Position numbers and translations under genes: made by a program. From Alteromonas sp. RKMC-009 (lineage in GTDB: Bacteria > Pseudomonadota > Gammaproteobacteria > Enterobacterales > Alteromonadaceae), in contig NZ_CP031010.1 in assembly GCF_003584565.2 (NCBI RefSeq), positions 124,001-188,000 on the forward strand: 64,000 nucleotides of DNA, written 5' to 3'. The notes under the pieces were generated by a model. It made no database searches. It was not told the DNA's origin and saw only the letters and a list, made by a program, of their open reading frames with translations. Shown in pieces: positions 32,398-58,457 of this stretch; position 1 is the first letter of the stretch; each line of letters starts with the position of its first letter.

Positions 32398-32563
32398 GAT
32401 TTACCACTTGTACAAACAGAGCGCGGTATCCTTCCGCGTTCTTTTCAGCTTCTGTCTCTGAATCAGCCCTGCCTTCATCAACAACTGCTAAACATCCGCA
32501 AATCGTCACCCCCGAATAAATTTATACAACCCTTAAAATACTTGTAACAATTCTGTTATATTG

Positions 32564-32579
32564 TGATTGGAAATGATTG
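32564..32579 (+). promoter_or_regulatory. Rhamnose-regulon operator upstream of rhaEW
   Basis: TGATTGGAAATGATTG, with TGATTG repeated at a 10-bp interval, 97-112 bp upstream of the rhaEW start. Additional ATTG-containing repeats follow at 32585-32606. Confidence 0.65.
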
Positions 32580-32675
32580 ACAAAGATTGTATTGGATGTA
32601 TATTGAATCATTAATGAATTAATGAGTCTCACAAAAGACCAGTTTCAATTAATTAACTTCACAGGATGCCTATAA

Positions 32676-34868
32676 ATGCCTTATCAGCCAGATGAATACA
32701 AACACGTTAAATATCTGTGGGAAGACGAGGTTGCAGATAAACTCGATCCCGTAGAAAACCTGGTATACCGCTCGAATAAGCTGGGCGAAGACCAGCGTAT
32801 TACTAATACCGGCGGCGGTAATACTTCGGCAAAGTTAATGGAAAAAGATCCGTTAACCGGTGAAGAAACTGAAGTGCTGTGGGTAAAAGGCTCCGGTGGC
32901 GATCTGCGTACATCAAAGAAAGAAAACTTCTCTTCTTTATACCAGGACAAACTGAACGCACTTGACGGCGTGTATCAGGACTATTCAGATAAAGGCTATA
33001 AGTCTGCCGGTGAAGACCGTATGGTCGGCATGTTCAAGCACTGTAACTTCTGCCTGAATCCACGGGCCTCGTCTATTGATACGCCTCTGCATTCAATGAT
33101 TGACGAAAAGCACGTTGATCACCTGCACCCGAATGCCGTTATCTCCGTTGCATCCTGTAAGGCGCAGAAAGAACTGACTGAAGTGATCTGGGGCGGCAAG
33201 CTGGCCTATGTGCCGTGGATGCGTCCCGGTTGGGAAGCGGCGAAACTGTGTGAAGACACCTATGCTGCGAGCCCTGACATCTGGGGTATTCTGTTAGGTC
33301 AGCACGGTCACACCAACTGGTCATCTGAAAGTAAAAGCTGTTACGAAACTTCTTTATGGGTTATCGAAACAGCGGCACGTTACATTGAAGAGCATGACAA
33401 AGGCGAAATGACCTTTGGTGGTCAGAAGTATCAGTCTCTGGACGATGCAGCCCGTACTGATCTGTTAAAAGACTTTTTACCGGTAGCCCGCGGCCTGCTT
33501 TCTAATAAAGTGAAGTTCATCGGTACTGTACAAACTGATGATGCCACACTGCGCTTCGTAAACAGCGTTGATGCGCCCCGTCTGGCTGAGTTAGGTACAT
33601 CGTGTCCAGACCACTTCCTGCGTACTAAAATTAAGCCGCTGTTCGTCGATTTCGATCCGCAGAATGACGACTTCGATACCCTGATCACTAAGTTTAAAGC
33701 TGGTCTGGAAAAGTATCGTGAAGATTACACGGCATATTACGAAGCCTGTAAACGTGAAGATTCTCCGGCTATGCGTGACCCGAGCCCGACGGTTGTACTG
33801 ATTCCGGGTGTAGGCATGATTGCCTGGGGCAAGAACAAGAGTGAATCCCGCGTTACTGCAGAATTCTATAACTGTGCTATTGAAGTAATGCGTGGTGCAG
33901 AAGCGATTTCTGAATATACCGCGCTGCCAGCTCAGGAAGCGTTTGATATTGAATACTGGGCGTTAGAAGAAGCAAAACTTCAGCGAATGCCGGCAGAAGC
34001 GCCACTGGCCCGCGACGTGGTTGTAGTGATTGGTGCCGGTGACGGTATCGGTAAAGCGACAGCGCACCGTGTTGCTAAAGAAGGTGCCCACGTAGTGTGT
34101 GCAGACCTTAACCTTGAGAACGCACAGCGCACCGCGAAAGAACTTACTGATAAATATGGTCAGGGAATTGGTGTAGCCGGTACAGGGATTTCTGCCTGTG
34201 GCCCGGCTGTAGCACTTCAGGCTGACATCACTAAACGTGAAACCGTGGAAGAGTTGTTCACACAGGTACTGCTGGCGTATGGCGGTCTGGATAAAGTGAT
34301 TGTGACTGCGGGTGTATTCATCGCAGAAGGCGCAGACATGGCGAAGAACGATCAAATCTTCGACCTGAGCTTTGGCGTGAATGTGAAAGGCGGTTATGTG
34401 GTTGGCTCAACGGCTCAGAAAATCTGGGAAGCGCAGGGCCTGAAAGGCGCACTGGTACTGACTACCAGCGTGAATGCAGCCGTATCGAAGAAAGGTTCTC
34501 TGGCGTACGACACCAGTAAAGCTGCGGCAAACCATCTGGTTCGCGAACTGGCGGTTACCTTGTCACCGCTGGTCAACGTAAATGCACTGGCACCGGCAAC
34601 AGTTGTGCAGGGCAGTAACATGTTCCCGAGAGACCGCGTGATTTCATCACTGACCAAGTACGATATTGCTCATGATGAAAGTGAAAGCACGGAAGAATTA
34701 CGTAACAAGCTGGCGCAATTCTATGCACAGCGCACGTTAACCAAACAACCTATCACACCGGATGATCAAGCCGAGGCGGCCTATCTTCTTGTATCCGGTC
34801 AACTGAGCAAAACAACCGGGCAAGTGATCAGTGTAGACGGCGGTCTGCATGAAGCTTTCCTGAGATAA
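32676..34868 (+). CDS. rhaEW: Bifunctional rhamnulose-1-phosphate aldolase / lactaldehyde dehydrogenase
   Basis: A 730-residue fusion. The N-terminal class II aldolase domain (about 1-430) splits rhamnulose 1-phosphate into dihydroxyacetone phosphate and L-lactaldehyde; metal-binding histidines are in TPLHSMIDEKHVDHLHPNA. The C-terminal short-chain dehydrogenase domain (about 450-730) has a nucleotide-binding GAGDGIG and a catalytic Tyr-x3-Lys in AYDTSKAA, and would oxidise lactaldehyde to L-lactate. The layout matches RhaEW of known rhamnose regulons. It is 10 bp upstream of rhaI, so they form one operon. Confidence 0.92.
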   Translation: MPYQPDEYKHVKYLWEDEVADKLDPVENLVYRSNKLGEDQRITNTGGGNTSAKLMEKDPLTGEETEVLWVKGSGGDLRTSKKENFSSLYQDKLNALDGVYQDYSDKGYKSAGEDRMVGMFKHCNFCLNPRASSIDTPLHSMIDEKHVDHLHPNAVISVASCKAQKELTEVIWGGKLAYVPWMRPGWEAAKLCEDTYAASPDIWGILLGQHGHTNWSSESKSCYETSLWVIETAARYIEEHDKGEMTFGGQKYQSLDDAARTDLLKDFLPVARGLLSNKVKFIGTVQTDDATLRFVNSVDAPRLAELGTSCPDHFLRTKIKPLFVDFDPQNDDFDTLITKFKAGLEKYREDYTAYYEACKREDSPAMRDPSPTVVLIPGVGMIAWGKNKSESRVTAEFYNCAIEVMRGAEAISEYTALPAQEAFDIEYWALEEAKLQRMPAEAPLARDVVVVIGAGDGIGKATAHRVAKEGAHVVCADLNLENAQRTAKELTDKYGQGIGVAGTGISACGPAVALQADITKRETVEELFTQVLLAYGGLDKVIVTAGVFIAEGADMAKNDQIFDLSFGVNVKGGYVVGSTAQKIWEAQGLKGALVLTTSVNAAVSKKGSLAYDTSKAAANHLVRELAVTLSPLVNVNALAPATVVQGSNMFPRDRVISSLTKYDIAHDESESTEELRNKLAQFYAQRTLTKQPITPDDQAEAAYLLVSGQLSKTTGQVISVDGGLHEAFLR

Positions 34869-34878
34869 GAGGTGACTT

Positions 34879-36174
34879 ATGTTAAGAAGAATTGATGCAT
34901 CCATTATCAGCGATGACAACGAAAAGCTGAAAGGGCACTTAGACGCAGATTACGCTGCGCTGGCAGATAAACTGGCACGCCAGGATATCGATATTGAGAA
35001 AATCACTGAGCTGGCCGGCGAATTCCAGGTTGCCGTACCTTCATGGGGTACAGGTACCGGCGGCACCCGTTTTGCCCGTTTCCCCGGTGAAGGCGAGCCG
35101 CGCAATATCTGGGAAAAGCTGGAAGACTGCGCAGTGATCAACGAAATGTCAGGTTGTACTGACAGCGTATCGCCTCACTTCCCCTGGGATGTGGTTGACG
35201 ATTTCTCTGAGCTGAAGCAAAAAGCAGATGAGTATGGTCTGAAGTGGGTATCGGTGAACTCAAACACGTTCCAGGACCAGCGCGGCCAGGAACACTCTTA
35301 CAAGTATGGCAGTTTGAGCAACACCAAAAAAGAATCCCGTGACCTGGCGATTCAGCACAACCTTGATGTGATTGGCTACGGTCAGCAACTCGGTGCAAAA
35401 AGCCTGACAGTATGGGTTGGCGACGGTTCAAACCATCCCGGCCAGCAACATTTCCAACGTGCATTCGAGCGTTACCTTGCCAGCATGGAAGAAGTGTATA
35501 AAGGCTTGCCCGATGACTGGGAAATGCACATTGAACACAAAATGTTCGAGCCTGCATTCTACTCAACAATCATTCAGGACTGGGGTTCAAACCTGCTTGC
35601 CGCTATGCACTTAGGGCCTAAGTGTAAGTCTCTGGTTGATTTGGGTCACCATGCACCGAATACCAACATTGAAATGATTGTGTCACGCTTAATTCAGTTC
35701 AAGAAGCTGGGCGGTTTCCATTTCAATGACAGTAAATATGGTGACGATGACCTGGACAGTGGTTCACTGCATCCTTATCAGCAGTTCCTGATCTTTAACG
35801 AACTGGTTGATGCTGAATATCGTCAGCAGGACGAGTTCGGTCCGGCGTATATGCTTGATCAGTCACACAACGTGACCGACCCGGCAGAGAGCCTGATCAA
35901 TTCAGCCATTGAAGTACAGCGCTCTTACGTCAAAGCATTGCTGGTTAACCGCGAAGCCCTGTATGGTTTCCAGGAAGACAATGATGCACTGATGGCGTCA
36001 CTTGAGCTGAAAAATGCGTTCAACCTGGATGTATCACCTATTCTGGCGATGGCGCGTTACCGTAAAGGTTCACCGATCAACCCTCTTGGTGTTTACCGCG
36101 GTGTTGGTTATCGTGAAACCATGGCAAAAGAGCGTCCACGCGACCCCAATGCCACCGGTTCTGGTATTGTCTGA
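34879..36174 (+). CDS. rhaI: L-rhamnose isomerase, RhaI type
   Basis: A 431-residue TIM-barrel sugar isomerase converting L-rhamnose to L-rhamnulose, of the RhaI family that replaces enteric RhaA. Metal-site segments are visible: HIEHKMFEPAFYS (Glu), LVDLGHHAPNTN (Asp/His) and GGFHFNDSKYGDDDLDSG. The length fits the family. It lies directly behind rhaEW with RBS AAGAGGTGA. A terminator follows, so lldD is probably made separately or by readthrough. Confidence 0.92.
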   Translation: MLRRIDASIISDDNEKLKGHLDADYAALADKLARQDIDIEKITELAGEFQVAVPSWGTGTGGTRFARFPGEGEPRNIWEKLEDCAVINEMSGCTDSVSPHFPWDVVDDFSELKQKADEYGLKWVSVNSNTFQDQRGQEHSYKYGSLSNTKKESRDLAIQHNLDVIGYGQQLGAKSLTVWVGDGSNHPGQQHFQRAFERYLASMEEVYKGLPDDWEMHIEHKMFEPAFYSTIIQDWGSNLLAAMHLGPKCKSLVDLGHHAPNTNIEMIVSRLIQFKKLGGFHFNDSKYGDDDLDSGSLHPYQQFLIFNELVDAEYRQQDEFGPAYMLDQSHNVTDPAESLINSAIEVQRSYVKALLVNREALYGFQEDNDALMASLELKNAFNLDVSPILAMARYRKGSPINPLGVYRGVGYRETMAKERPRDPNATGSGIV

Positions 36175-36205
36175 TTCAGACGGACTGTGAATTTGGCCTG
36201 AAGAT

Positions 36206-36230
36206 ACAGCTCGCGTTTGCGGGCTGTTTT
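36206..36230 (+). terminator. Terminator after rhaI
   Basis: ACAGCTCGC-GTTT-GCGGGCTGT with one G-T wobble, followed by TTT, 32 bp after the rhaI stop. Confidence 0.65.
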
Positions 36231-36275
36231 GTATCTGAGGGCTGTGGATCTGTAGCATGAGAACGGAAAACAATA

Positions 36276-37421
36276 ATGCGATTAAGCCAGTGTCATAATT
36301 TTCATGATTTTCGTAAGTTGGCGCAGAAGCGTTTGCCGGGGCCAATTTTTAACTACATCGATGGCGGTGCTGACGATGAAACCACGTTACGCCGCAACAC
36401 GTCGGCTTTCCGTGAGTGTGATCTGATCCCCCGTGTACTCACCGGGGTGAAAGATATTGATTTGAGTGTTGAAGTGATGGGGCAAAAACTGCAGTTGCCG
36501 GTTTATTTGTCACCAACCGCACTGCAACGTTTGTTTCATCATCAGGGTGAACGGGCTGTGGCAGCGGTCGCAGAGCAATTCGGTACCATGTTTGGTGTGT
36601 CATCCCTCGGCACAGTCAGCATGGAGGAAATTGCTAAGCAATACGATACGCCTCAGGTATATCAGTTCTATTTCCATAAAGATCGCGGTCTCAACAGAGC
36701 CATGATGGAGCGGGCGAAAGAGTCTGGTATCGAAGTGATGATGCTTACTGTCGATTCCATTACCGGCGGTAACCGCGAACGGGATTTACGTACCGGTTTC
36801 TCCATTCCTTTCCGGTTGAATCTGGCGGGCTTGTGGCAGTTTGCGACTAAGCCGGCGTGGGGCATTAACTATGTCACCCATGAAAAATTTTCGCTGCCGC
36901 AACTGGATGCCCACATTAATATGGGCGGTTCAACCAGCTCTATTGGTGACTACTTCACAAACATGCTCGACCCGTCGATGAACTGGAAAGACGTGGCAGA
37001 GATGGTGAAATTTTGGGACGGCCAGTTCTGTCTCAAAGGGATTATGAGTGCCGACGATGCTAAACGTGCCGTTGATATCGGCTGTACCGGCATTGTGATT
37101 TCAAACCACGGTGGCCGTCAGCTTGATGGTTCCCGAAGTTCCTTTGATCACCTGGCTGAAATTGTTGATGCCGTTGGTGACCAGATTGACGTTATGTTCG
37201 ACAGTGGTATTCAGCGCGGTACACATGTACTCAAAGCATTAGCGCTGGGTGCGAAAGCGGTCGGACTGGGGCGCTATTATCTTTATGCACTGGCAGCGGC
37301 TGGTCAGAAGGGCGTAGAGCGTGCGATGCAGCAAATGGTGGCTGAAATCGAACGGGACATGCGCCTGATGGGCTGTAGCAAAATCAGTGAGCTGAACCGC
37401 GACCACGTGCGGTTCAGATAA
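36276..37421 (+). CDS. lldD: FMN-dependent L-lactate dehydrogenase
   Basis: A 381-residue alpha-hydroxy-acid oxidase/dehydrogenase. The FMN-binding barrel is recognised by IFNYIDGGADDE near the N-terminus, the catalytic His in IVISNHGGRQLDGS (about 270) and FDSGIQRGTHVLKAL. It would oxidise L-lactate, the product of lactaldehyde oxidation by RhaEW, to pyruvate and pass electrons to the quinone pool, closing the rhamnose route. Relatives include mandelate and glycolate oxidases, but the position supports lactate. Confidence 0.87.
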   Translation: MRLSQCHNFHDFRKLAQKRLPGPIFNYIDGGADDETTLRRNTSAFRECDLIPRVLTGVKDIDLSVEVMGQKLQLPVYLSPTALQRLFHHQGERAVAAVAEQFGTMFGVSSLGTVSMEEIAKQYDTPQVYQFYFHKDRGLNRAMMERAKESGIEVMMLTVDSITGGNRERDLRTGFSIPFRLNLAGLWQFATKPAWGINYVTHEKFSLPQLDAHINMGGSTSSIGDYFTNMLDPSMNWKDVAEMVKFWDGQFCLKGIMSADDAKRAVDIGCTGIVISNHGGRQLDGSRSSFDHLAEIVDAVGDQIDVMFDSGIQRGTHVLKALALGAKAVGLGRYYLYALAAAGQKGVERAMQQMVAEIERDMRLMGCSKISELNRDHVRFR

Positions 37422-37451
37422 GCGTTTTGTACACTTTGTAAAAATAAGCAC

Positions 37452-37473
37452 GCACGCAGGCTAGCCTGCGTGC
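37452..37473. terminator. Perfect palindrome after lldD
   Basis: A 22-bp perfect palindrome with 11-bp arms starting GCACGCAGGCT, 30 bp after lldD. No T-tract follows, so it may be a weak terminator or an RNA-processing hairpin. Confidence 0.55.
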
Positions 37474-37601
37474 TGTCATTCTGATGCCCTCCATCTATCC
37501 CTGAATCCTGATTCAATCCGTTAACAGTTCTCCGGATCTCCTTTAAATACATCACTGTATGCGTATCCCTGCACCTCATGATTACTACTTTTGAATATTT
37601 G

Positions 37602-37617
37602 TGATTGAAAATGATTA
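37602..37617 (+). promoter_or_regulatory. Rhamnose-regulon operator upstream of rhaT
   Basis: TGATTGAAAATGATTA, 112-127 bp before rhaT, with one mismatch from TGATTGAAAATGATTG. A further GTGTGATTTAC follows at 37621-37631. Confidence 0.65.
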
Positions 37618-37728
37618 AAAGTGTGTGATTTACATAAAATTATTGTGTATGCTGGCAATTGTATTGTTTAAATGATGTAAACCCGTTACTTAAAAATTAC
37701 ATGCGGGTGGTGTACCGGGAGTAAAGGC

Positions 37729-38787
37729 ATGACACCAAATCCATTACTAGGGGTATTGTTTCACTGGCTGGGCGGTTTGTTCTCTGCCAGTTTCTATGTT
37801 CCGTACAAACGCATTCAAAAGTGGTCATGGGAAATCTTCTGGCTGACCGGTGGTATTTTCAGCTGGTTCCTGTGCCCCTGGTTTTTCGCGATGGTCCAGA
37901 CCGAAGATTTATTTGGCGTTCTGGGCAGTACACCGGCAAGCACATTGCAGCAATGTTTCCTTTGGGGTCTGGGCTGGGGCTTTGGCGGTTTAACCTTTGG
38001 GCTGGCTGTACGCTACATGGGTATCTCGTCAGGCATGGCTATCGTGCTGGGTCTTACTACAGTATTAGGGACGTTAGGCCCACCTATATTTGATGGCACA
38101 ATCGGTGCCGTACTGGCAACCACCAGTGGCCAGTTTGCTGTAGGCGGTACGTTGATGACCCTCGTCGGGGTTATTGTTGTTGCCAGGGCGACTGCTGAAA
38201 AGAACCGCAGTCTCGGCACCACAGAAGAAGCCGAAACCATTGATATGAAAAAAGGCTTAGCCATCGCCGCGTTTTCCGGCGTCATGTCTGCCTGTTTTGC
38301 TTTCGGTATTGCGGCGGGTAAACCCATCCGTGAACTGACTCTTGAAGCCGGCACCGATCATCTCTGGCAGGGTTTGCCTGTATTGTGTGTTGTATTGCTG
38401 GGTGGTTTAACGACTAACGCTGTCTGGTGTATTTATCTGATTGCGAAAAATGGTTCTGCCAAAGAATTTTTTGGTCAGGTCGCCAAAGGCACTGAGCGTC
38501 TGCAGGGCAACACGATGGTGAAAAACTATCTGCTGGCTGCATTAGGCGGTGCATTCTGGTACTTCCAGTTCTTCTTTTACACCATGGGCGAAAGCAACAT
38601 GGGTAAATACGAGTTTTCCAGCTGGACCATTCATATGGCCAGTATCATCATTTTCTCCACGCTGTGGGGATTAGCGTTGATGGAATGGAAAGGCAGCAAC
38701 AAAAAGAGTCGTATGCTTCTGCTGACCGGTATCTCTTTACTTGTTCTTGCCACGCTGGTGATCGGCGTAGGTAACTCTCTGCAATAA
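37729..38787 (+). CDS. rhaT: L-rhamnose/proton symporter
   Basis: A 352-residue inner-membrane protein with about ten hydrophobic segments, matching RhaT of the drug/metabolite transporter superfamily. The start NPLLGVLFHWLGGLFSASFYV and the segment YKRIQKWSWE are characteristic. It brings free L-rhamnose, released in the periplasm by the GH78 enzyme, into the cytoplasm for RhaI. It has its own promoter region with a DeoR-type site. It is monocistronic. Confidence 0.93.
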   Translation: MTPNPLLGVLFHWLGGLFSASFYVPYKRIQKWSWEIFWLTGGIFSWFLCPWFFAMVQTEDLFGVLGSTPASTLQQCFLWGLGWGFGGLTFGLAVRYMGISSGMAIVLGLTTVLGTLGPPIFDGTIGAVLATTSGQFAVGGTLMTLVGVIVVARATAEKNRSLGTTEEAETIDMKKGLAIAAFSGVMSACFAFGIAAGKPIRELTLEAGTDHLWQGLPVLCVVLLGGLTTNAVWCIYLIAKNGSAKEFFGQVAKGTERLQGNTMVKNYLLAALGGAFWYFQFFFYTMGESNMGKYEFSSWTIHMASIIIFSTLWGLALMEWKGSNKKSRMLLLTGISLLVLATLVIGVGNSLQ

Positions 38788-48143: not shown

Positions 48144-48800
48144 TTAACGGATATTATCAGGGTGTCCGAGCAGGTAATGCAGTGTTATTTCGCTCAAGTC
48201 TTCCAGCATTTCGTCCCAGTCTTCTTCACCACTGGTGGAGTCCACAAAACCCAGCCCCAGAAAACGGGATAAAGCAGAATAGGCATACATAAAACCACGG
48301 TGAACGGCACGGGTTGGATCGGGTTGAGTAATTTCATCTTTGCATTCTAAAAGCAGCTTAAGAAAGTCCTCGGTATTTTGCCAGGCGTGTTGTTTACCAA
48401 TTTCCCGCACCACTTCATCTACCACAGAAATTTCCATTAGCGGCCGTAGAATTCCCTGATATTTGCGAAGGATATCGCCATACTGACGAATAACCGCCGG
48501 CACCAGTTGCCTGAGCTTCAGGTTTTGTCTGCGGATCATGTTAATTGCTACAGCTGAGTCGACTTCCAGCGCTTCGAGTTCGTTGCGCTGAACCTGACGG
48601 ATCAGGTTCTCTTTGCTGTTAAAGCGGTTATAGATAGAACCGATAGAGACGTTGGCACGCTTACTCACTTCCTGAAGCGTAAATTCTGCGTAACCTTTTT
48701 CGATTAATAAGTCGGCGGCGGCCCGAAGCAAGCGCTCCAGAGAAGCCCGGCTCCGACTCTGCTTCGGTTCCCTGTGAAATTCAGTAGTATCTGTACTCAA
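48144..48800 (-). CDS. TetR-family regulator of the glycoside locus
   Basis: A 218-residue TetR-type repressor. The N-terminal helix-turn-helix is FTLQEVSKRANVSIGSIYNRF (about 40-60), followed by an unclassified ligand domain. It is divergent from the MFS transporter and the C-glycoside-type operon; an inverted repeat TTAGAAT-CTGT-ATTCTAA stands 30 bp before that transporter. It probably represses that operon, and perhaps the TBDR at 54260 where a similar site occurs, until a glycoside or its aglycone binds. Confidence 0.85.
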   Translation of the reverse strand: MSTDTTEFHREPKQSRSRASLERLLRAAADLLIEKGYAEFTLQEVSKRANVSIGSIYNRFNSKENLIRQVQRNELEALEVDSAVAINMIRRQNLKLRQLVPAVIRQYGDILRKYQGILRPLMEISVVDEVVREIGKQHAWQNTEDFLKLLLECKDEITQPDPTRAVHRGFMYAYSALSRFLGLGFVDSTSGEEDWDEMLEDLSEITLHYLLGHPDNIR

Positions 48801-48982: not shown

Positions 48983-49000
48983 TTAGAATCTGTATTCTAA
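48983..49000. promoter_or_regulatory. TetR-type operator before the MFS operon
   Basis: TTAGAATCTGTATTCTAA, perfect 7-bp arms with a 4-base centre, 30 bp upstream of the transporter start. Confidence 0.65.
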
Positions 49001-49029: not shown

Positions 49030-50256
49030 ATGAAATCTGTTATCGCTTTTTTCAAACGGCTGGAGCAAATACCGCAGGGCCTGATCATTGTTATCTCTGC
49101 ATTTCTTCCTCTCTTCGCCATCGTGTCGATGTTTCCGGCATTGCCGTCCATCATCGACCACTTCAAAGACCATCCTAATGCCCGGGAGCTTGTGCCGCTA
49201 ATTGTGTCGGCGCCCGGGTTAACTATCGCGCTAACCGCTTCTTTTGCCGGTGTACTGGTAGACAAATACGGCAGGGTACGGTTGCTACTGTGGGCAACCT
49301 GTCTGTACGGTGTATTCGGTGTGGCGCCTTTCTTCTTAACTGACATCTACGCCATGTTCGCCAGCCGTCTGCTGCTGGGCTTTGCTGAAGCCATCATCAT
49401 TACTGCGGTAAATACGTTAATTGCTGATTACTGGGAAGATGAAGGTCGTCGCGACTGGTTATTCCTGCAAGGACTGGCCGGGCCGTTCCTCGGCGCTATT
49501 GTTATCCGCACCGCAGGCCCTGCTACGGAAATTCAATGGAACGGCGTGTTCCTGATTTACTCAGTGGCTTTCGTTATTTTCCTGCTGATGCTGAAGTATT
49601 TAAAAGAGCCGGCGCGTCAGGTGAAAGCGGGAGTCGCCAGTGCAGTAGAAGCCGTCAACAAAGTGCCGTTTCCCACCGCTACCATGGCTGCGATTGGCGC
49701 AGTAACCCTGCTGTCATCGGCACTGTACTACGTATTTATTATTTCCGGTGGACTGGTGTTCCGCGAGCTCGGCATTAACGAGCCGTCACGGATCAGCGAA
49801 TTGTCAGCCATTCCCAGTTTGTTCGTAATGGTGGGAGCATTCCTCTTCCGCTTACTGGGTGGCAAGTCGAATGCAATTCAAATCGGCAGCTTCCTGGTAG
49901 TGCTGTGTGGTGGCCTGCTTATTATGGGCACCGCCAACAGCGTAGAAATGCTGGTTCTGGGTCTGGTTATTCAACAAACCGGTGCCGGTATGTCTGTACC
50001 CAGTCTGATTGCCTGGACACAAACTAAAGTCCCAGCCCAACACCGCGGTCGGGGTATGGGAGTGTGGGCATCGTGTTTCTTCTTCGGTCAGTTCTCCAGC
50101 CCCTGGCTGGTGGCCCGCATCGAATCGATAACCGGCAGTGTGCATGGCGCATTTGCTGTGGCGGGTGGCATTGGCCTGGCGGCCGGCTGCATCGGCCTGC
50201 TTCTTCACTTCAAGTCTGACTCCGGCTCTAAAACAGCCAGTGCCGGTCAGCACTAA
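49030..50256 (+). CDS. MFS transporter of the glycoside operon
   Basis: A 408-residue major facilitator with twelve predicted helices, first gene of a six-gene array that runs in one direction to the TBDR. The loop 2-3 motif GVLVDKYGRVRLLLWA is standard MFS. It probably imports the 3-keto glycoside made in the periplasm, or its intact parent, for the cytoplasmic lyase-like pair that follows 33 bp later. An export role for the aglycone cannot be excluded. A TetR-type operator stands directly upstream. Confidence 0.82.
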   Translation: MKSVIAFFKRLEQIPQGLIIVISAFLPLFAIVSMFPALPSIIDHFKDHPNARELVPLIVSAPGLTIALTASFAGVLVDKYGRVRLLLWATCLYGVFGVAPFFLTDIYAMFASRLLLGFAEAIIITAVNTLIADYWEDEGRRDWLFLQGLAGPFLGAIVIRTAGPATEIQWNGVFLIYSVAFVIFLLMLKYLKEPARQVKAGVASAVEAVNKVPFPTATMAAIGAVTLLSSALYYVFIISGGLVFRELGINEPSRISELSAIPSLFVMVGAFLFRLLGGKSNAIQIGSFLVVLCGGLLIMGTANSVEMLVLGLVIQQTGAGMSVPSLIAWTQTKVPAQHRGRGMGVWASCFFFGQFSSPWLVARIESITGSVHGAFAVAGGIGLAAGCIGLLLHFKSDSGSKTASAGQH

Positions 50257-50289
50257 TTAAACAAGAATACTCTTTGGGAGAAAACTCAC

Positions 50290-51279
50290 ATGGCAATTAA
50301 GCGTGGCGTGAGCCTTTATAGCTACCAGAACGAAACGTTTCTGGGTGAAATGACACTGGACGATTGTATTCGTGTGTGTGCAGAGATGGGCGCGAATGGT
50401 ATTGAAGTCATCGGCGAGCAGTCGTTCTGGGGTCACCCGGAGCAATCCATTGAAGATGCGGCGATTGAAGGCTGGCACGAATCAATTAAAAAGCATGGCG
50501 CAGTGCCGGTTGCTTTGGATTTCATGATTGACTACAAGCGCTACAAGGGTCGCATCATGACACTTGAAGAGCAGGTGGAAAGCATCAAAAAAGACATCGC
50601 ACTGGCAAAGCGCCTGGGTACGCCGTTCATGCGTGTGCTGGTGTCAATCGACCCTGATGTACTGGTAGCTGCAGCGCCGTTTGCTGAAGAAGCCGGCGTT
50701 AAACTGCTGGTAGAAGTGCATGCCCCGCTGCATTTCGATCATCCGTGGATTTTACGTCACGCCGAAGCATTTGATAAATCCGGCTCTGACGCGCTGGGTT
50801 TCCTGCCTGATATGGGCATGTTCCTCGATAAATTCCCGCCTTGCTGGAAAGCCCGCTTTATTCGTAATGGTGTGCCGCAGAATATTGCTGATTACATTGA
50901 AAAGGCCTACGAAGACCGTGTTCTCAGTGAGTATGTGATCCAGAACGTGCGTGAAATGGGTGGTACAGGCCCTTCACTGGGTATGGCTGAAACCCTGCGT
51001 CACAACGGTGCGTTTGCGCCGGAACGTATGCTGCCGCACATGGATCGTATTCATAACATCCACGGCAAGTTCTATGAAATGACCGAAGACTGCATTGAGC
51101 CGGCCATTCCCTATGAGCGCATTATCCAGGTACTCACCAAAGGTAATTACGACGGTTACATTTGTTCTGAATATGAAGGTAACCGTTGGATTGAAGATGC
51201 GCATACCGTGGATTCGGTAGAGCAGGTCAGACGCCAGCAAAAAATGCTGGAAAACCTTATCAACAAATATCAGCGCTAA
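50290..51279 (+). CDS. TIM-barrel isomerase-like protein, putative C-glycoside deglycosidase alpha subunit
   Basis: A 329-residue sugar phosphate isomerase/epimerase-like TIM barrel (AP endonuclease 2 superfamily). Metal-site residues are apparent in LVEVHAPLHF (Glu/His, about 140), GFLPDMGMF (Asp, about 176), HNIHGKFYEM (His, about 256) and YICSEYEGN (Glu, about 297). Immediate coupling (12 bp) to a DUF6379 protein is the gene pair known from CarB/CarC and DfgA/DfgB, which split the C-C bond of 3-keto C-glycosides. Without such a partner it would only be called an isomerase, so the specific role is an inference. Confidence 0.75.
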   Translation: MAIKRGVSLYSYQNETFLGEMTLDDCIRVCAEMGANGIEVIGEQSFWGHPEQSIEDAAIEGWHESIKKHGAVPVALDFMIDYKRYKGRIMTLEEQVESIKKDIALAKRLGTPFMRVLVSIDPDVLVAAAPFAEEAGVKLLVEVHAPLHFDHPWILRHAEAFDKSGSDALGFLPDMGMFLDKFPPCWKARFIRNGVPQNIADYIEKAYEDRVLSEYVIQNVREMGGTGPSLGMAETLRHNGAFAPERMLPHMDRIHNIHGKFYEMTEDCIEPAIPYERIIQVLTKGNYDGYICSEYEGNRWIEDAHTVDSVEQVRRQQKMLENLINKYQR

Positions 51280-51291
51280 GGAGTCATTATT

Positions 51292-51687
51292 ATGTTTGAT
51301 AACAAAGTGATTGTAGAAAACAGCCTGACACGGGTGACCAGCGCTGAAGCGGGTTTTGATGGCGTAAGTGTACTGGCACGTTTGCCTTACTATCGTGGTC
51401 TGGGCCTGTCGATGGTTGAAAACATTGCAGTAACCGTTGATGACAAAATAGTGGCCCGGGAAGACACCCTGTTTTCTGTACGTGGAAACACCTGGACGCT
51501 CGATGAGATGGAAACCGAATACGGTGAACGCTGGAATTTTGGTGAAAAGGCCAAAGTACTGGTGAAGCTTCCTGAAGGGCTGGATGACGGCGAACATGAT
51601 ATTTCTGTTGCCATCACCATGCGGGTTTCTTATCTGCCGTTCGTGCCTACCACTAAAGATACAAAGCGTCTGGCGTTGCAGGGTTAA
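51292..51687 (+). CDS. DUF6379 protein, putative C-glycoside deglycosidase beta subunit
   Basis: A 131-residue beta-rich protein of the DUF6379 family, named for the beta subunit of C-glycoside deglycosidases (CarC, DfgB). The conserved N-terminus (FDNKVIVENSL), the SVRGNTWTLDEM segment and the C-terminal MRVSYLPFVPTT are visible. It has no signal peptide, so it is cytoplasmic with the preceding barrel protein. In known complexes the small subunit completes the active site. A short hairpin (TTGCAGG-GTTAAT-CCTGCAA, 51676-51695) spans its stop codon. Confidence 0.8.
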   Translation: MFDNKVIVENSLTRVTSAEAGFDGVSVLARLPYYRGLGLSMVENIAVTVDDKIVAREDTLFSVRGNTWTLDEMETEYGERWNFGEKAKVLVKLPEGLDDGEHDISVAITMRVSYLPFVPTTKDTKRLALQG

Positions 51688-51725
51688 TCCTGCAATTCCC
51701 TTCTCGTATCGCGTCGGAGCATAGC

Positions 51726-52301
51726 ATGACTGACTCAACTAATTCGTCACGCCGCCAGTTTATGGCAGGTGCATTAATGGCGGCGGCAGGCCTCACGGTA
51801 GCACCGCATACTATCTGGGCGGCAACGTCTGCATCTGCTGCTTTTGATCATAAAGCGATGCTGGATTGTCTTTGCGATATTGTTATCCCGGTCACAGACA
51901 CGCCCGGAGCCAAAGGCGTGAATGCCAGCGCTTTTGTTATGAAAGCGGCGGAACACGCCCTTAAAGGCGCGCAAATAAGTGATGTTGATACGTTTGCCGT
52001 TGCACTGAATGACTATGCCGGCGCAGATTTTTTGTCGGTTAAAGCAGAACAACAATTCAGCCTGATAGAAAAACTGGATGCGCAGGTCTACGACCGCGCA
52101 GCTTCTGCTTCCCTGCCGCCTGCGCTCATGCTGTGGCAAAAGATAAAGTCGCTGATCCTGGTGGCTTACTACACCTCTGAGGTGGGGGCATCGAAGGAGC
52201 TGAAGTATTTACTGATACCCGGCCAGTTCAAGCCGGATGTGCCGTTGAGTGAAGAACCGAGAGCCTGGTCAAACGACTGGACAGGAGTGAAGTACGGATG
52301 A
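51726..52301 (+). CDS. Tat-exported gluconate 2-dehydrogenase subunit 3-like small subunit
   Basis: A 191-residue protein with a twin-arginine signal (SRRQFMAGALMAAAG, about 8-22) and the gluconate dehydrogenase subunit 3 fold. In FAD-dependent sugar dehydrogenases this subunit carries the signal peptide for both chains, so the leaderless GMC subunit that follows (ATGA overlap) is exported with it. Export of the folded pair would place glycoside 3-oxidation in the periplasm. No cytochrome c subunit gene follows. Confidence 0.85.
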   Translation: MTDSTNSSRRQFMAGALMAAAGLTVAPHTIWAATSASAAFDHKAMLDCLCDIVIPVTDTPGAKGVNASAFVMKAAEHALKGAQISDVDTFAVALNDYAGADFLSVKAEQQFSLIEKLDAQVYDRAASASLPPALMLWQKIKSLILVAYYTSEVGASKELKYLLIPGQFKPDVPLSEEPRAWSNDWTGVKYG

Positions 52302-53998
52302 ATCAGTCTGATAGTACAACCTATGATGCCATCGTCGTTGGCTCCGGTATTACCGGAGGATGGGCGGCAAAAGAGCTCACCGAAAAAGGGCTAAAAGTGC
52401 TCATGCTGGAGCGGGGAGAAGATATTCCTCACCGTACCGGCTATAAACATGAAATGACGCCGCCCTGGGAAATGCCATTCCGCGGGGAAGGGGATCAGGC
52501 ATATTGGGAGAAACACTATCCCATTCAGCAACACAGCGGTCATCTCACCGAATGGACGGAAGACTACTGGGTAGACGACAGTGAACAGAGTTACGAAACT
52601 GCGCAGGAACCGGGCTTTCGATGGTTGCGAGGCTATCACCTGGGTGGCCGCTCCCTGATGTGGGGCCGGCAATGCTACCGTTGGAGTGATTACGATTTTG
52701 AATCGAACGCCAGAGACGGTCATGGCACCGACTGGCCTATCCGTTATAAAGATATTGCCGACTGGTATGATTATGTAGAGTCTTTTGTGGGTATTTCCGG
52801 TGCGAAAGAAAATCTGCCCCAGCTACCCGACGGGCAGTTTCAGCCGCCTATGGCATTAAATGCCGTCGAGCAGCACATGCGCGAGGAGATCTTTAAAACC
52901 TATCCGGATCGCTGTTTAACCATTGGCAGAACCGCCAACCTCACCGAGGGCAAGCCCGAAGAGGGGCGGGTGAACTGCCAGTACCGTAATATCTGCTCCC
53001 GGGGCTGTTCATTCGGTGCCTATTTCAGTACCCAAAGCAGCACTTTGCCAGCGGCGCAGAAAACCGGAAACTTAACCCTGCGAACCGACAGCGTGGTTGA
53101 AACCGTGATTTACGATAACAAGACGAAACGGGTTACCGGTGTCACGGTTATCGACCGGAAAACCAAAGAAAAACTGACGTATAACGGAAAGCTGGTATTT
53201 CTCTGTGCCGGTGCGTTTAACTCTGTTGCATTGATGCTGCGTTCCACGTCTGAAGCCTTTCCTGACGGGCTGGCCAATTCGTCGGGCACGCTGGGTAAAT
53301 ACATCATGGATCATGCCGGTACACTGGGCGTAGCGTCCATTATTCCCGGTTACGATGAACACTATTATCACGGCTCCCGTCCTACCGGCGTGGTGATCCC
53401 CCGCTTTGTGAACCTGGAAGAAAATGACAAACCTTACCTGCGCGGCTTCTCATACCAGGGCGGAGCTTATCGTTCTGGCTGGACCCGTGGCATGCGACAG
53501 GCCGGTGTGGGCGAGGCGTTCAAAGATGAGTTACAGGCACCCGGCCCGTGGAAATTCGTACTCACCACCTTTGCTGAGTGTTTGCCACAAGAGACCAACC
53601 GCATCACCCTCAGCGACACAAAAACTGATGCTGATGGCTTACCCCAACTGCGTATCGACTTTGCTTTCAGCGATAACGAATACAAGTTGCTGGCAGCAGC
53701 CAAAGAAGAAGCTGCAAAAATGGTGGAAGCGGCAGGCGGTAAGGTGCTGTTCGGCTCTGATAAACCCAATCCCGGAGGCTCGGCTATTCATGAAATGGGC
53801 GGAGCAAGAATGGGGAAAGATCCTAAAACCTCGGTACTCAATGGCTATAATCAAGCCCACGATATTCCGAATCTGTTTGTCACCGATGGCGCAGCAATGG
53901 CGTCTTCTGCCTGTCAGAACCCGTCTCTCACCTACATGGCGCTTACCGCCAGGGCTGTAGATTATGCAGTGAAAGCGCTGCAAGCGGGTGCAATCTGA
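52298..53998 (+). CDS. GMC-family FAD-dependent glucoside dehydrogenase catalytic subunit
   Basis: A 566-residue GMC oxidoreductase. The FAD-binding VVGSGITGGWAAKEL is at the N-terminus, LGGRSLMWGRQ is the second flavin motif, and the C-terminal active site has His in GGSAIHEMGGARMG and Asn in SACQNPSLTYMALTARA. The pattern is that of glucoside 3-dehydrogenases and FAD-dependent C-glycoside 3-oxidases. It overlaps the Tat subunit gene by 4 bp. A cysteine-rich segment (INCQYRNICSRGCSFG-like, about 225-240) suggests an iron-sulphur or disulphide element as in related dehydrogenases. Cytochrome or quinone would accept the electrons. Confidence 0.87.
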   Translation: MNQSDSTTYDAIVVGSGITGGWAAKELTEKGLKVLMLERGEDIPHRTGYKHEMTPPWEMPFRGEGDQAYWEKHYPIQQHSGHLTEWTEDYWVDDSEQSYETAQEPGFRWLRGYHLGGRSLMWGRQCYRWSDYDFESNARDGHGTDWPIRYKDIADWYDYVESFVGISGAKENLPQLPDGQFQPPMALNAVEQHMREEIFKTYPDRCLTIGRTANLTEGKPEEGRVNCQYRNICSRGCSFGAYFSTQSSTLPAAQKTGNLTLRTDSVVETVIYDNKTKRVTGVTVIDRKTKEKLTYNGKLVFLCAGAFNSVALMLRSTSEAFPDGLANSSGTLGKYIMDHAGTLGVASIIPGYDEHYYHGSRPTGVVIPRFVNLEENDKPYLRGFSYQGGAYRSGWTRGMRQAGVGEAFKDELQAPGPWKFVLTTFAECLPQETNRITLSDTKTDADGLPQLRIDFAFSDNEYKLLAAAKEEAAKMVEAAGGKVLFGSDKPNPGGSAIHEMGGARMGKDPKTSVLNGYNQAHDIPNLFVTDGAAMASSACQNPSLTYMALTARAVDYAVKALQAGAI

Positions 53999-54023
53999 CC
54001 CGGGTTCCTCCTTTCTTATATTT

Positions 54024-54041
54024 TTAGAATCTATTTTCCAA
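54024..54041. promoter_or_regulatory. TetR-type operator-like site before the TBDR
   Basis: TTAGAATCTATTTTCCAA agrees at 15 of 18 positions with TTAGAATCTGTATTCTAA at 48983-49000; the left arm and part of the centre are identical. Confidence 0.45.
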
Positions 54042-54259
54042 TAATGAGGTATCAATTTCCTTGATGCCTCTCATCATTAAGTTCGCGTTTTAGATAGCGG
54101 GAATTCCTGTATTTTATTTTTTGTTAACTAAATGTGTCATTCGGTACATGGGGTTAACAAAGGCGATGTGAGTGATGTCCGGTGGCATGGTGAAACGCAG
54201 CAAAGATTGCGGTAACCCGTCCACAGGCATTCGCATAAGAAGACATACAGGAAGCCAAA

Positions 54260-56584
54260 ATGAAAAACACGCAAATTTTCAAAGTCACGGCGCTGGCGGC
54301 TGCCATTGCCAGTCCGGTGCTTTACGCTCAAGAAACAGTTGAAACTGAGGAGTCTCAAGGGTTTGAAGTTATCCTTGTGGAAGCGCAGCGGACCACTCAA
54401 AACCTCCAGGAAGTGCCGGTGAGCGTTCAAGTGCTCTATGGTTCTGATCTGGCAGAACAGAATATCAATGAACTGACACAACTCTCTGTCATGGCGCCCA
54501 CACTGCAGGTGGGACAGGACAATACCTACGCCATTCGTGGCATCGGTTCCCAGATTTTTGCCGAGACTATCGACCCCAGCGTTGCGCTGGCCATTGACGG
54601 CGTAAGTCTGGGGAGAAATGCACTCGCCGGTCAGCCCTTCAACGACATTGCTTCAGTGGAAGTGCTGAACGGTCCGCAAGGCTTGCTATTCGGTAAAAAT
54701 GCGTCGGCAGGTCTGGTCAATATCGCAACGAAACGCCCGGTCATTGATGAAAGCTCAGGCAATATCTCATTTGAATACAATTTAAGAGATACCACGCCAA
54801 CAGATGCTACCGGCAAGATTGCAAAAGGCACTATTAATCTGCCGGTATCAGAAAATTCTGCTCTGCGCATCAATGCGTTGTATTCCATGCAGGACAGTAT
54901 TATCGACAACATCTATCCCAATACTGAACGTACGGACTTAGATCAGGAAAAGTCCGGGATTAAATTGAAGTACCTGTATGAAGATGGTCCGCTGAGCCTT
55001 TATTTTATTGGTGACTACAATAAGAACGAAGGCACCGGAGAGCGCTATGCCAGAACGTTCCGTGAAGTCGATCCTGACAGTGAGATTGTCGCGCTACTGG
55101 CAGCAGACAACATTACGCCAGGGCCAGAAAACATGACCAATAATTCCGATGGTGAGATGTTTCAGGACGTAGAAACCGGTGGGCTGCAGGGAGAAGTGGT
55201 TTACGCATTCAACAATGGTATGGAGCTTTTCAATATCGCTGCGTGGCGCTACTTCGACAGTGACGCGAACCTGCATAATGACTTTTCATCACTGCCCGAT
55301 ATCGTAAATAACCCGAACACCAATGAGTATGAACAGTTCTCCAATGAATTGCGTCTGGTGTTACCTGCCACTGAAAACTATTCCGGTCAGGTGGGCTTAT
55401 TCTATTTTGATTCAGAATCGAACATGACAAATAGTCTGGAAGTGCAGGGGCCGCCGCCGTTTGTGGCTGTTGGGTTCCCGTTCTGTGTGGAGGCTGAGAT
55501 ATCCGGTCCGCCACCGGGATGCCCTTACAGCAACGATGTGTTTTTAGGAAACGACTCTGTGACTACACTCACCCAGACCAGTTACGCCGCTTTCGGGCAG
55601 TTCGATTTCTATCTCACAGATAAACTCACTGCCACCGCCGGCGCCCGGGTAACGCAGGATGAAGTCACTTCCGATGTACTGCAAATGCAGAAAGATTATT
55701 TCATCGGTATCGGTGGCCCCCGTGGACAATTCAATGAATCAGTAGATAACACCAATCTGAGCTGGAAGCTGGGGGCACAGTACCAGTATGACGCCGACCT
55801 GATGATGTATGTGTCGGTAGGTCAGGGCTATAAAGCGCCGGGCTTTAATACCGACAATCAGGATAACGAAGCGATTCCGTTTGCCGTTGAAGATGAGATT
55901 TCTACCACCATCGAAGCAGGCTTTAAGAGCAAAGTGCTGGATGATAGGGTCATTTTCAACCTGTCAGTGTTTAATACCGATTTTGATAATTACCAGGCGC
56001 AGTCGTTTAATCTCGATGCTCAGGCTTTCATCATCCAGAATGCTGCCACCGTAACCTCGCGGGGTGCTGAAATTTCAGTAAGAGCACTGGCCAGTGACAA
56101 CCTGACTTTCTACTGGGATGCAGCCCTGCTGGATTCAACTTTCGATGAATTTGCGCAGGCATCCTGTACGCCAGACTCAACAGAGTGTGGCCCCGATGAT
56201 GCTTTTTTTGATGCATCCGGGTATTCCACACCACTGGCGGCAGATTTCACATCCACACTGAAGGCACAGTACGAGCAGGAAATCACGGCAACGATATACG
56301 GATTCCTTAATGCCAGCGTATATTACCGGTCTGATATTAATTACGGTATTGCATCGCCTTCAACAGAGCTTGATGCCATCACTACGTTTAACATCAGTGC
56401 AGGTTTTGAAACCGATGACGGCTTACGGGTGTGGGTATTCTGTAATAACTGTACCGACGAGAAATACCCCGTCTCTATGGGCTTTGATCCCGGTGAGAAT
56501 AACCGCGGCTTTGCCTCAATTCACCAAACCTGGGGGCTCAACTCAGTGCGCTCACTCGGTCTGGCTGCCTCCTGGGCATTTTAA
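54260..56584 (+). CDS. TonB-dependent receptor of the glycoside locus
   Basis: A 774-residue outer-membrane receptor with a signal peptide (to about residue 23), a TonB-box-like EVILVEAQR, a plug domain with YAIRGIGSQIF and VEVLNGPQGLLFGKNASAG, and a barrel ending in the aromatic AASWAF. It follows the GMC gene after 261 bp and probably imports the glycoside oxidised by that enzyme. A TetR-type site upstream suggests shared control. It is related in plug sequence to the receptors at 14244 and 62037. Confidence 0.9.
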   Translation: MKNTQIFKVTALAAAIASPVLYAQETVETEESQGFEVILVEAQRTTQNLQEVPVSVQVLYGSDLAEQNINELTQLSVMAPTLQVGQDNTYAIRGIGSQIFAETIDPSVALAIDGVSLGRNALAGQPFNDIASVEVLNGPQGLLFGKNASAGLVNIATKRPVIDESSGNISFEYNLRDTTPTDATGKIAKGTINLPVSENSALRINALYSMQDSIIDNIYPNTERTDLDQEKSGIKLKYLYEDGPLSLYFIGDYNKNEGTGERYARTFREVDPDSEIVALLAADNITPGPENMTNNSDGEMFQDVETGGLQGEVVYAFNNGMELFNIAAWRYFDSDANLHNDFSSLPDIVNNPNTNEYEQFSNELRLVLPATENYSGQVGLFYFDSESNMTNSLEVQGPPPFVAVGFPFCVEAEISGPPPGCPYSNDVFLGNDSVTTLTQTSYAAFGQFDFYLTDKLTATAGARVTQDEVTSDVLQMQKDYFIGIGGPRGQFNESVDNTNLSWKLGAQYQYDADLMMYVSVGQGYKAPGFNTDNQDNEAIPFAVEDEISTTIEAGFKSKVLDDRVIFNLSVFNTDFDNYQAQSFNLDAQAFIIQNAATVTSRGAEISVRALASDNLTFYWDAALLDSTFDEFAQASCTPDSTECGPDDAFFDASGYSTPLAADFTSTLKAQYEQEITATIYGFLNASVYYRSDINYGIASPSTELDAITTFNISAGFETDDGLRVWVFCNNCTDEKYPVSMGFDPGENNRGFASIHQTWGLNSVRSLGLAASWAF

Positions 56585-57254: not shown

Positions 57255-58457
57255 TGAATTAGTTCCGACCAGATCTGACACATCGACTTGAAAAGATGAG
57301 AGTTACCCAGTTTGATAAAGGTGTCGAATCTTTATTAAACAAACCAAAAGGTAACTCTCATGTTGCATACTAGCAATCCAATCATTAAACACAAAGCAGG
57401 ATTACTTAATCTGGCCGAAGAACTCGGCAACGTCTCTAAGGCCTGTAAAGTGATGGGCGTATCCCGAGACACGTTTTATCGCTATCAGGAGTTAGTTGAA
57501 GATGGCGGTGTTGATTCACTAATCAGCAAATCCAGAAGAACACCTAACTTAAAGAATCGCGTTGATGAGCAGACCGAGCAAGCGGTACTCGTTCACGCCG
57601 TCGATTATCCCGCACACGGCCAAGCCAGAACCAGTAATGAACTTCGCAAGCAAGGCGTATTCGTGTCCGGCAGTGGCGTGCGTTCTATCTGGCTCCGTCA
57701 TAACCTTGAGAACTTTAAAAAGCGTCTGGCTGCTCTTGAGGAGAAGGTCGAGAAGGAAGGAATTATACTAACCGACGAGCAAGTTGCGGCACTGGAAAAG
57801 AAGAAGCAGGATGATGAGGCCTGCGGTGAAATTGAAACACATCATCCAGGCTATCTCGGCTCTCAGGACACGTTTTATGTTGGTAATTTGAAAGGTGTTG
57901 GTCGGATTTACCAGCAGACGTTTGTTGATACCTACAGCAAAATTGCGTTTGCTAAGCTCTACACAACGAAGACGCCTATCACCTCCGCAGATGTACTGAA
58001 TGATCGCGTCTTGCCGTTCTTCGAGGCTCAGTAGCTGCCAATGCTCAGAATTCTTACAGACAGAGGCACGGAATACTGTGGGAAGGTCGAACAGCATGAT
58101 TACCAGCTCTATCTGGCGATAAACGATATCGACCACACCAAAACAAAAGCCCGTCATCCCCAGACAAACGGTATCTGTGAACGCTTCCACAAAACCATTC
58201 TCAACGAGTTTTATCAGGTTACGTTCCGCAAGAAACTCTATGATTCACTGGAGATGTTGCAGAAAGATCTGGACGAGTGGCTGAATTATTACAACAATGA
58301 ACGAACTCATCAGGGCAAAATGTGCTGCGGCAGAACGCCAATGGAAACATTAATCGATGGGAAACAGATTTGGGCTGAGAAGAATTTAGCTCAAATCTAA
58401 TCTGACGCTGGCACCAGAAAAACTGGGTAACTGTCAGATCAGGTCTGAGCTAGTACA
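57255..58457 (+). mobile_element. IS481-family insertion sequence (about 1.2 kb)
   Basis: An insertion sequence bounded by a 7-bp TTTAAAG duplication. Its ends are imperfect inverted repeats starting with TG; the first 26 bases match at 21 positions, with an identical GATCTGACA inside. An inner copy of GTTACCCAGTTT is near both ends (57302-57313 and 58420-58431). It carries a DDE transposase split by an amber codon. It interrupts an NTF2-like gene on the opposite strand. Confidence 0.85.
57360..58400 (+). pseudogene. IS481-type DDE transposase with internal stop
   Basis: The transposase has an N-terminal helix-turn-helix (VSKACKVMGVSRDTFYRYQ, about 23-41) and a retroviral-type DDE domain: Asp in QTFVDTYSK, Asp in ILTDRGTEYCG and Glu in NGICERFHKTILNE. 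A TAG at 58032-58034 stops the frame after 224 residues, before the second Asp; the same frame resumes directly (MLRILTDRG at 58041) and runs to 58400. A single base change would restore a protein of about 346 aa. It is therefore probably inactive unless the stop is read through. Confidence 0.85.

Follow-up and report, generated by a model that had tools for sequence, protein, structure and literature searches.

The 64-kb window analyzed here (C1:124001-188000, on contig NZ_CP031010.1 of the 5.01-Mb genome of Alteromonas sp. RKMC-009) contains a locus that we consider likely to encode a Gram-negative route for aryl C-glycosides under TetR control. The glycosides would probably be C-glucosyl flavonoids or related polyphenols, and related O-glucosides would be accepted too. 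The reactions, compartments and substrate of this route, all of which we infer, would run as follows. A TonB-dependent receptor (TBDR) would bring the glycoside into the periplasm, and a GMC dehydrogenase, exported through the Tat pathway with a signal-bearing small partner, would oxidize the sugar at C3. The 3-keto glycoside would be imported by an MFS protein and cleaved at its C-C bond by a cytoplasmic alpha/beta C-glycoside deglycosidase (CGD) through metal-assisted beta-elimination, yielding the aglycone and 1,5-anhydro-D-erythro-hex-1-en-3-ulose. Both products would then be degraded further by sugar-isomerase-like proteins and aromatic ring-cleavage enzymes encoded in other parts of the genome. 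The features of the locus, in window coordinates, are the following:

48144 to 48800, minus strand: TetR-family regulator (Pfam TetR_N, 8.9e-15), divergent from the operon and likely the reader of the palindromic operator.
48983 to 49000, no strand: operator-like perfect palindrome TTAGAAT-CTGT-ATTCTAA between the TetR and MFS genes, the sole exact match in the 5.01-Mb genome.
49030 to 50256, plus strand: MFS transporter (Pfam MFS_1, 3.4e-30), proposed inner-membrane importer of the oxidized glycoside.
50290 to 51279, plus strand: CGD alpha subunit, a TIM barrel with a metal site (Pfam AP_endonuc_2, 3.7e-13; 8qvc_A, 2.3e-109).
51292 to 51687, plus strand: CGD beta subunit, CGDB PF19906/DUF6379 (Pfam, 4.1e-34; 8qvc_B, 1.5e-22).
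51726 to 52301, plus strand: gluconate 2-dehydrogenase subunit-3-like protein (Pfam Gluconate_2-dh3, 1.6e-17), with the twin-arginine signal SRRQFM at residue 8.
52298 to 53998, plus strand: GMC flavoprotein of the glucoside 3-dehydrogenase type (Pfam GMC_oxred_N/C, 1.2e-16 / 4.8e-23), with C-x5-C-x3-C at residue 227.
54024 to 54041, no strand: second operator-like site, TTAGAAT-CTAT-TTTCCAA, with 2 mismatches, 227 bp before the receptor gene.
54260 to 56584, plus strand: TBDR (Pfam TonB barrel, 1.8e-36; Plug, 4.4e-13), proposed outer-membrane entry.

Gene content, CGD membership, active-site residues, a dehydrogenase-type GMC enzyme with its Tat partner, and the operator-like sites are read from the sequence itself. 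The six open reading frames (ORFs) that the first-pass annotation placed on one strand are borne out by the ORF list, the translations and Pfam, and the divergent TetR gene, missing from that list, completes the locus. The array it described as uninterrupted has operon-like spacing from the MFS to the GMC gene, with gaps of 33, 12 and 38 bp followed by a 4-bp overlap between the subunit-3 and GMC genes; the receptor gene is set apart, 261 bp 3' of the GMC gene, and is probably its own transcription unit, since the gap carries the second operator-like site. An Rfam scan of the window at gathering scores gave no RNA match.

By family membership and active-site residues, the alpha/beta pair is assigned to the CGDs at the level of sequence. 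The alpha subunit aligns over residues 3-326, nearly its full length, with the Deinococcus aerius C-glucosyl deglycosidase 8qvc at 52% identity, and the beta subunit falls in PF19906, whose Pfam name is 'C-glycoside deglycosidase beta subunit' and whose members other records call DUF6379. Because both match solved CGD subunits (2.3e-109 and 1.5e-22), their pairing is not due to chance, and the earlier proposal that the TIM-barrel and DUF6379 proteins are CGD subunits holds. The alpha residues E142, H144, D174, H258, K260, E294 and E296 correspond to E147, H149, D179, H269, K271, E305 and E307 of AgCGD2, for which the available text of PMC8563793 reports Glu, Asp, His, Lys and Glu as metal ligands and a catalytic His and Glu. 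Six of the seven metal or catalytic residues occur in 105/105 aligned alphas and His258 in 103/105, Gln taking its place in the other two. An AlphaFold2 model of alpha (pLDDT 82.4) agrees with the suggested structural identity: its 16 best fold-search matches are all CGD chains (TMq 0.69-0.88), and the other 34 rows shown (TMq 0.52-0.61) are isomerases, epimerases and other barrels, including the 3-keto-glucoside enzymes 8tcd and 6wn6. Neither a grouping of the barrel with epimerases nor a loss of active-site residues was found; all seven residues are kept, and three host barrel proteins that are not CGDs share 15-19% identity with alpha, compared with 52% for the D. aerius CGD. The CGD tree contains some long branches, the non-CGD rows among them, and one of its three outgroup rows branches within the CGDs; it therefore does not decide between CGDs and other barrels.

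Since one characterized CGD is also active on a 3-keto O-glucoside, the natural substrate may be a C- or an O-glycoside. The same machinery could have the natural role of cleaving 3-keto O-glucosides of phenolics, with C-glycoside activity incidental, an explanation that we consider unlikely although it survives better than the others. According to the available text of PMC10628242, PuCGE cleaves both kinds of substrate, 3-keto-phlorizin included, and C-glycosides make up a minor share of plant glycosides, both of which speak for O-glucosides and against the route proposed here. The same text describes the O-specific AtOGE as a separate enzyme with no sequence similarity to CGE, reports that isolated PuCGE alpha retains slight O- and no C-activity, and finds that the Y39F exchange in PuCGE effectively removes C-glucoside activity and lowers 3-keto-phlorizin activity 2.4-fold (PMC10628242). 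Tyr39 of the PuCGE beta subunit corresponds to Tyr34 here, in a register taken from the DgpB alignment of a paralogue (system 4, below), and both the beta subunit and this Tyr, critical for C-C cleavage, are invariant (104/104 aligned betas). Moreover, the GH3, GH43, GH78 and GH106 hydrolases of the genome could handle O-linked sugars, and the nearest solved relative is titled C-glucosyl deglycosidase. Our best guess is a glycosylated polyphenol, probably flavonoid-like.

The oxidizing enzyme of the proposed C-glycoside route resembles a cytochrome-linked glucoside 3-dehydrogenase. Its best solved relatives are FAD glucose/fructose dehydrogenases (5.3e-41 for glucose dehydrogenase 6a2u; TMq 0.72-0.75 for a model with pLDDT 76.9). 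In contrast, 7dve, titled FAD-dependent C-glycoside oxidase, which we take to be CarA, and 7qf8 and 8qve match the C-terminal part only (2e-12 to 1.5e-10; TMq 0.63-0.64); 7dve, like PsG3Ox and DaCGO1, is weaker than the dehydrogenases in both sequence and fold comparison, and a CarA/G3Ox-type oxidase of the pyranose oxidase family is rejected. In the earlier proposal, the CarA-like type gives way to a GMC of the glucoside-3-dehydrogenase type. The C-x5-C-x3-C motif recurs in 45/45 GMCs of the same type from 80 related loci and presumably has an iron-sulfur role, as in FAD-GDH. Among 120 listed homologs, two, both 70% identical, are labeled by their source as the catalytic subunit of glucoside 3-dehydrogenase (cytochrome c), and others are named choline dehydrogenase-like or GMC oxidoreductase or are nameless. 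Periplasmic action would depend on co-export with the Tat partner, since by reading the GMC protein has no obvious export signal of its own. In the available text of PMC10628242, Rhizobium GlycDH (AEX01166.1), expressed with a Tat-pathway partner, oxidizes puerarin and nothofagin at C3, and orientin, vitexin and isovitexin are also substrates. Homology, through the dehydrogenase-type GMC and its Tat partner, and the shared operator-like sites support the periplasmic 3-oxidation suggested earlier.

Shared operator sites are our best evidence that receptor, importer, oxidizer and lyase form one system. The genome contains 16 places that match TTAGAAT-N4-ATTCTAA with at most two mismatches, the second operator-like site among them. 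Seven of these lie at promoters of systems 1 and 2 (two of the four CGD loci of this genome, the window locus being system 1) and of nearby receptors (p 8e-11), or 5/14 without the two sites used to derive the pattern (p 1.5e-7). Totals at up to three mismatches are not enriched relative to the reversed pattern (125 vs 188 per strand), so the enrichment is in placement only. Related loci were taken as the 80 best named alpha matches with 10 kb around each, some cut by contig ends. The four nearest (L016-L019) each carry a site with one mismatch 5' of the MFS operon, and 76 further loci hold 122 sites, spread over 62 of them, whereas 40 permuted palindromes gave 1.1 on average and 13 at most; 104 of the 122 lie no more than 300 bp 5' of a cluster gene. 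A site precedes 39/98 alpha, 12/95 beta, 14/52 MFS, 12/42 subunit-3, 11/58 TBDR, 10/60 TetR, 4/55 GPH and 0/46 GMC genes, with control means of 0.03 for MFS, 0.17 for TBDR, 0.05 for subunit 3 and 0.30 for alpha; related loci are not independent, and these counts are therefore not to be taken as probabilities. The fixed residues of the recognition-helix region VS[IV]GSIYxRF agree at each position in at least 65 of 66 aligned TetRs. The TonB-driven uptake envisaged in the first-pass annotation gains support from homology (Plug and barrel domains) and from the operator-like sites before both operon and receptor.

The PF19906 profile matches four places in the host genome, and the four CGD loci belong to three sub-clades. 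System 1 belongs to a clade of proteobacterial sequences (98/97), and the tree does not resolve where this clade joins the D. aerius enzymes; systems 2 and 4 group with AgCGD2 (99/98), and system 3 with the fused Microbacterium testaceum CGD and EuCGD (100/99). Since the tree needs four separate placements, the four are not recent duplicates, and lineage-specific duplication is rejected. System 2 (C1:211-218 kb; stretch L006 6065-13275) has alpha and beta opposite a GMC gene, followed by MFS and TBDR genes; its GMC lacks the C-x5-C-x3-C motif and has no adjacent subunit-3 Tat partner, which suggests cytoplasmic 3-oxidation there. System 3 (C1:240.7-249 kb) comprises a fused beta-alpha protein, TBDR, MFS, subunit 3, GMC and TetR. 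The fusion, encoded at 15675-17048 of stretch L007, is a natural one, and it shares with the fused M. testaceum enzyme a Gln in place of the metal-ligand His seen in the other aligned CGDs. System 4 (C1:1316-1324 kb) comprises a TBDR, an MFS_2-type sugar transporter, beta, alpha, subunit 3 and GMC.

CGD genes are sparsely distributed around the host. CGDB was found in 2/60 genomes of one sample (the host and one other, both among its 36 host-genus genomes), in 1/394 genomes drawn from the host's order (the host only), and in 12/149 genomes of the Sphingomonas panni family. Among named alpha homologs the closest, from Alteromonas sp. 1_MG-2023, is 98% identical. The first four of the 80 related loci are gammaproteobacterial (Aestuariibacter, an Alteromonadaceae metagenome-assembled genome, and two loci of one metagenome-assembled genome); the rest are mainly from Sphingomonadales, with a few from Burkholderiales, Pseudomonas, Pantoea, Azospirillaceae and Paracoccus, and several lie on megaplasmids. 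Since the nearest relatives beyond a few gammaproteobacteria are Sphingomonadales, horizontal gain of the locus by this Alteromonas is likely. Within 10 kb of the 80 alphas we found beta in 76 loci after overlap filtering (79/80 by any hit), TetR in 64, TBDR in 58, GPH in 57, MFS in 55, GMC in 54 and subunit 3 in 42; TBDR and GMC occur together in 42/80, and 36/80 have all of alpha, beta, subunit 3, GMC, TBDR and MFS or GPH. The Novosphingobium mathurense genome has six CGDB matches, so multiplication of CGDs is not limited to this Alteromonas. A ThuA-family gene lies between beta and subunit 3 in three related loci (L016 11416-12450, L018 11410-12438, L019 11456-12457) and is absent from the host locus; in the host, a ThuA gene whose product has a similar N-terminus occurs next to another TBDR-like ORF, at C1:256738-257709. 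To the right of the receptor, at 57360-58400 in the window, two ORFs contain transposase pieces, one IS481-like (below the curated cut-off) and one an integrase-core piece, and ORFs left of the window (stretch L011) look transposase-like by eye.

The surroundings of three of the four host CGD loci contain genes for rhamnosidases, rhamnose catabolism and aromatic-ring cleavage. In the window, 21176-38787 is a rhamnoside/L-rhamnose locus with GH3, a GH78 alpha-L-rhamnosidase, a TBDR at 27339-30005, an FGGY kinase and an aldolase-dehydrogenase, both of the rhamnose type, an isomerase-like barrel, an FMN dehydrogenase and RhaT, and a VanA/VanB-like Rieske O-demethylase pair lies near the left edge (1930-3929). 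Beyond the window are GH43, a GH106 rhamnosidase, GH3, a gallate dioxygenase (712 bits against a cut-off of 412), and a GPH symporter beside three sugar-isomerase-like genes. The host also has two sets of genes for an FAD monooxygenase, a VOC/glyoxalase-fold dioxygenase, a fumarylacetoacetate hydrolase and an alpha/beta hydrolase, to which one of the two sets adds a cyclase; the four common genes are 44-55% identical. These putative aglycone ring-degradation sets lie at L008 17601 to L009 2987, past system 3, and at L005 15716 to L006 2357, near system 2; in genome coordinates the aglycone clusters are at C1:200-207 and 262-268 kb. The set may resemble the naringenin (fde) operon of Herbaspirillum. 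In Deinococcus aetherius, alpha, beta and GMC genes are directly followed by genes for a VOC protein, a cyclase, a fumarylacetoacetate hydrolase, a prolyl-oligopeptidase-type hydrolase and FAD oxidoreductases, and identity to the host proteins is 61.6% for the hydrolase, 42% for the cyclase, 29% for the fumarylacetoacetate hydrolase and 24-40% for the FAD proteins. On a Croceicoccus marinus plasmid, an operator with one mismatch lies 5' of the VOC gene in a VOC/hydrolase/CGD cluster. Within one Sphingomonas family, the alpha/beta hydrolase occurs in 12/12 CGD-positive and 15/137 CGD-negative genomes (Fisher p 1e-10, a value that ignores kinship).

Several further observations weigh against the proposed route or against its extension to the aglycone. 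The operon contains no cytochrome c gene, and none was sought genome-wide. All 14 NCBIfam matches of the MFS protein are below cut-off, so its substrate cannot be assigned. System 3 has no operator within three mismatches before its CGD, TBDR or GMC genes, only three-mismatch places occur near system 4, and the inverted repeats at these two systems revealed no convincing shared operator; the regulon accordingly covers systems 1 and 2. At least two aglycone-set genes lie within 10 kb in only 13/80 loci. Across the 76 loci the operator precedes 2/12 VOC genes and none of the prolyl-oligopeptidase, FAD monooxygenase, fumarylacetoacetate hydrolase or cyclase genes, many of which may sit inside operons, and the D. 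aetherius VOC protein has no match to that of the host at 1e-10. Three of the four nearest loci (L016-L018) have no TBDR within the stretch examined, which is short for L018, and in L019 the TBDR is about 8 kb upstream; a receptor adjoining the GMC gene, part of the array as first described, is thus not a conserved placement. TBDR, MFS and TetR genes are common, and the neighbor counts in the 80 loci stand without a random-locus control. Together with the position of the receptor as a separate unit 261 bp downstream, these last points favor the view that the receptor, or the receptor and the MFS gene, are neighbors serving another substrate and that only the enzymes take part in glycoside cleavage. 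We regard this as improbable, given the operator-like sites 5' of both the MFS operon and the receptor, the sites before MFS, TBDR, subunit-3 and alpha genes in the 76 loci against their low control means, and the TBDR and transporter genes that systems 2, 3 and 4 have as well. That the alpha barrel is an ordinary sugar or sugar-phosphate isomerase or epimerase, as its sole Pfam match to AP_endonuc_2, a superfamily rich in isomerases, could suggest, is discarded as extremely improbable on the identities and fold ranking given above and on the adjoining CGD beta gene.

Beyond the TetR-controlled C-glycoside route itself, we tentatively put forward a wider proposal, to which we give somewhat less than an even chance. 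Alpha- and Gammaproteobacteria would share an operator-defined C-glycoside regulon of receptor, periplasmic 3-dehydrogenase, importer and CGD. The FAD monooxygenase, VOC dioxygenase, cyclase, fumarylacetoacetate hydrolase and alpha/beta hydrolase linked to it would extend the regulon to complete mineralization of C-glucosyl flavonoids, perhaps by hydroxylating and opening the sugar-bearing ring. An Alteromonas would have brought together four CGDs from three sub-clades, and three of the four lie close to rhamnoside and aromatic catabolism. C-glycosides are resistant to ordinary glycosidases, and to our knowledge little is known of their breakdown outside guts and soils; if such a regulon exists, marine bacteria would be agents of C-glycoside turnover. 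The locus would provide a concrete Gram-negative architecture of receptor, periplasmic oxidation and cytoplasmic C-C cleavage, and the operator sequence makes regulon members, substrates and inducers findable. It would also supply new lyases, and a lyase of this kind is of interest since, working in reverse, it makes aryl C-glycosides (available text of PMC13273386).

In the literature searched, outside which lay most subscription papers and all supplements, we found, among the matches listed, no description of the combined Gram-negative architecture or of the operator, and no C-glycoside paired with TonB-dependent uptake; searches on seagrass flavone C-glycosides and on Sphingomonas or Alteromonas C-glycosides yielded nothing on such a system among the matches listed. 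The enzyme family, the 3-dehydrogenase and TonB receptors for aromatic compounds are each already known (for the receptors, available text of PMC6874591). DdvT of Sphingobium sp. SYK-6 is likewise a TonB-dependent receptor for an aromatic compound, but its substrate is a lignin-derived biphenyl and, as far as that text goes, no glycoside chemistry is involved (PMC6874591). The statement that known examples come from soil and gut bacteria was too narrow, as Mori et al. predicted CGD homologs in Proteobacteria and marine bacteria in 2021 (available text of PMC8563793).

The Rhizobium-Agrobacterium pathway of GlycDH-Tat, AtOGE, hydratase and Gfo shares with the locus a Gram-negative GMC C3-oxidizer with a Tat-signal partner and the logic of oxidation followed by elimination, whereas its eliminase is the O-specific AtOGE, unrelated in sequence to CGD (available text of PMC10628242). 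The solved enzymes of soil Actinobacteria (AgCGD2, M. testaceum) and gut Firmicutes (DgpBC/PuCGD, DfgAB/EuCGD, 9m3a, 9m3b) have the same metal and base residues, except for the Gln that replaces one metal-site His in the fused M. testaceum CGD; CarBC, whose sequence lay outside our comparison, belongs with them (available text of PMC8563793). These soil and gut CGDs differ in that their alpha subunits are only 26-32% identical to that of the host, their 3-oxidizing enzymes are of other kinds, and their hosts are Gram-positive, with no outer membrane. The D. aerius CGD (PDB 8qvc/8qvd/8umc) is closer, with alpha at 52% identity, beta at 1.5e-22 and shared active-site residues, but its oxidoreductase DaCGO1 is of the pyranose-oxidase type. 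Furlanetto et al. (2024) reportedly describe, to judge by the title, a D. aerius CGD gene cluster for C-glucosyl flavonoids and xanthonoids. In the sister species D. aetherius a GMC enzyme and an aglycone set accompany the CGD pair, as proposed here, whereas its 17-kb stretch contains an ABC sugar importer and a GntR regulator and lacks a TonB receptor, subunit 3 and any operator within three mismatches. The Sphingomonadales CGD loci (Novosphingobium, Sphingomonas, Sphingobium and Croceicoccus, which are annotated only) differ in that some combine two CGD pairs, Gfo/Idh/MocA, ThuA and GH3 genes in one locus and several are on megaplasmids; in the named loci alpha is up to 74% identical and beta adjoins it, and many share the TetR, TBDR, GPH/MFS and GMC genes as well as the operator.

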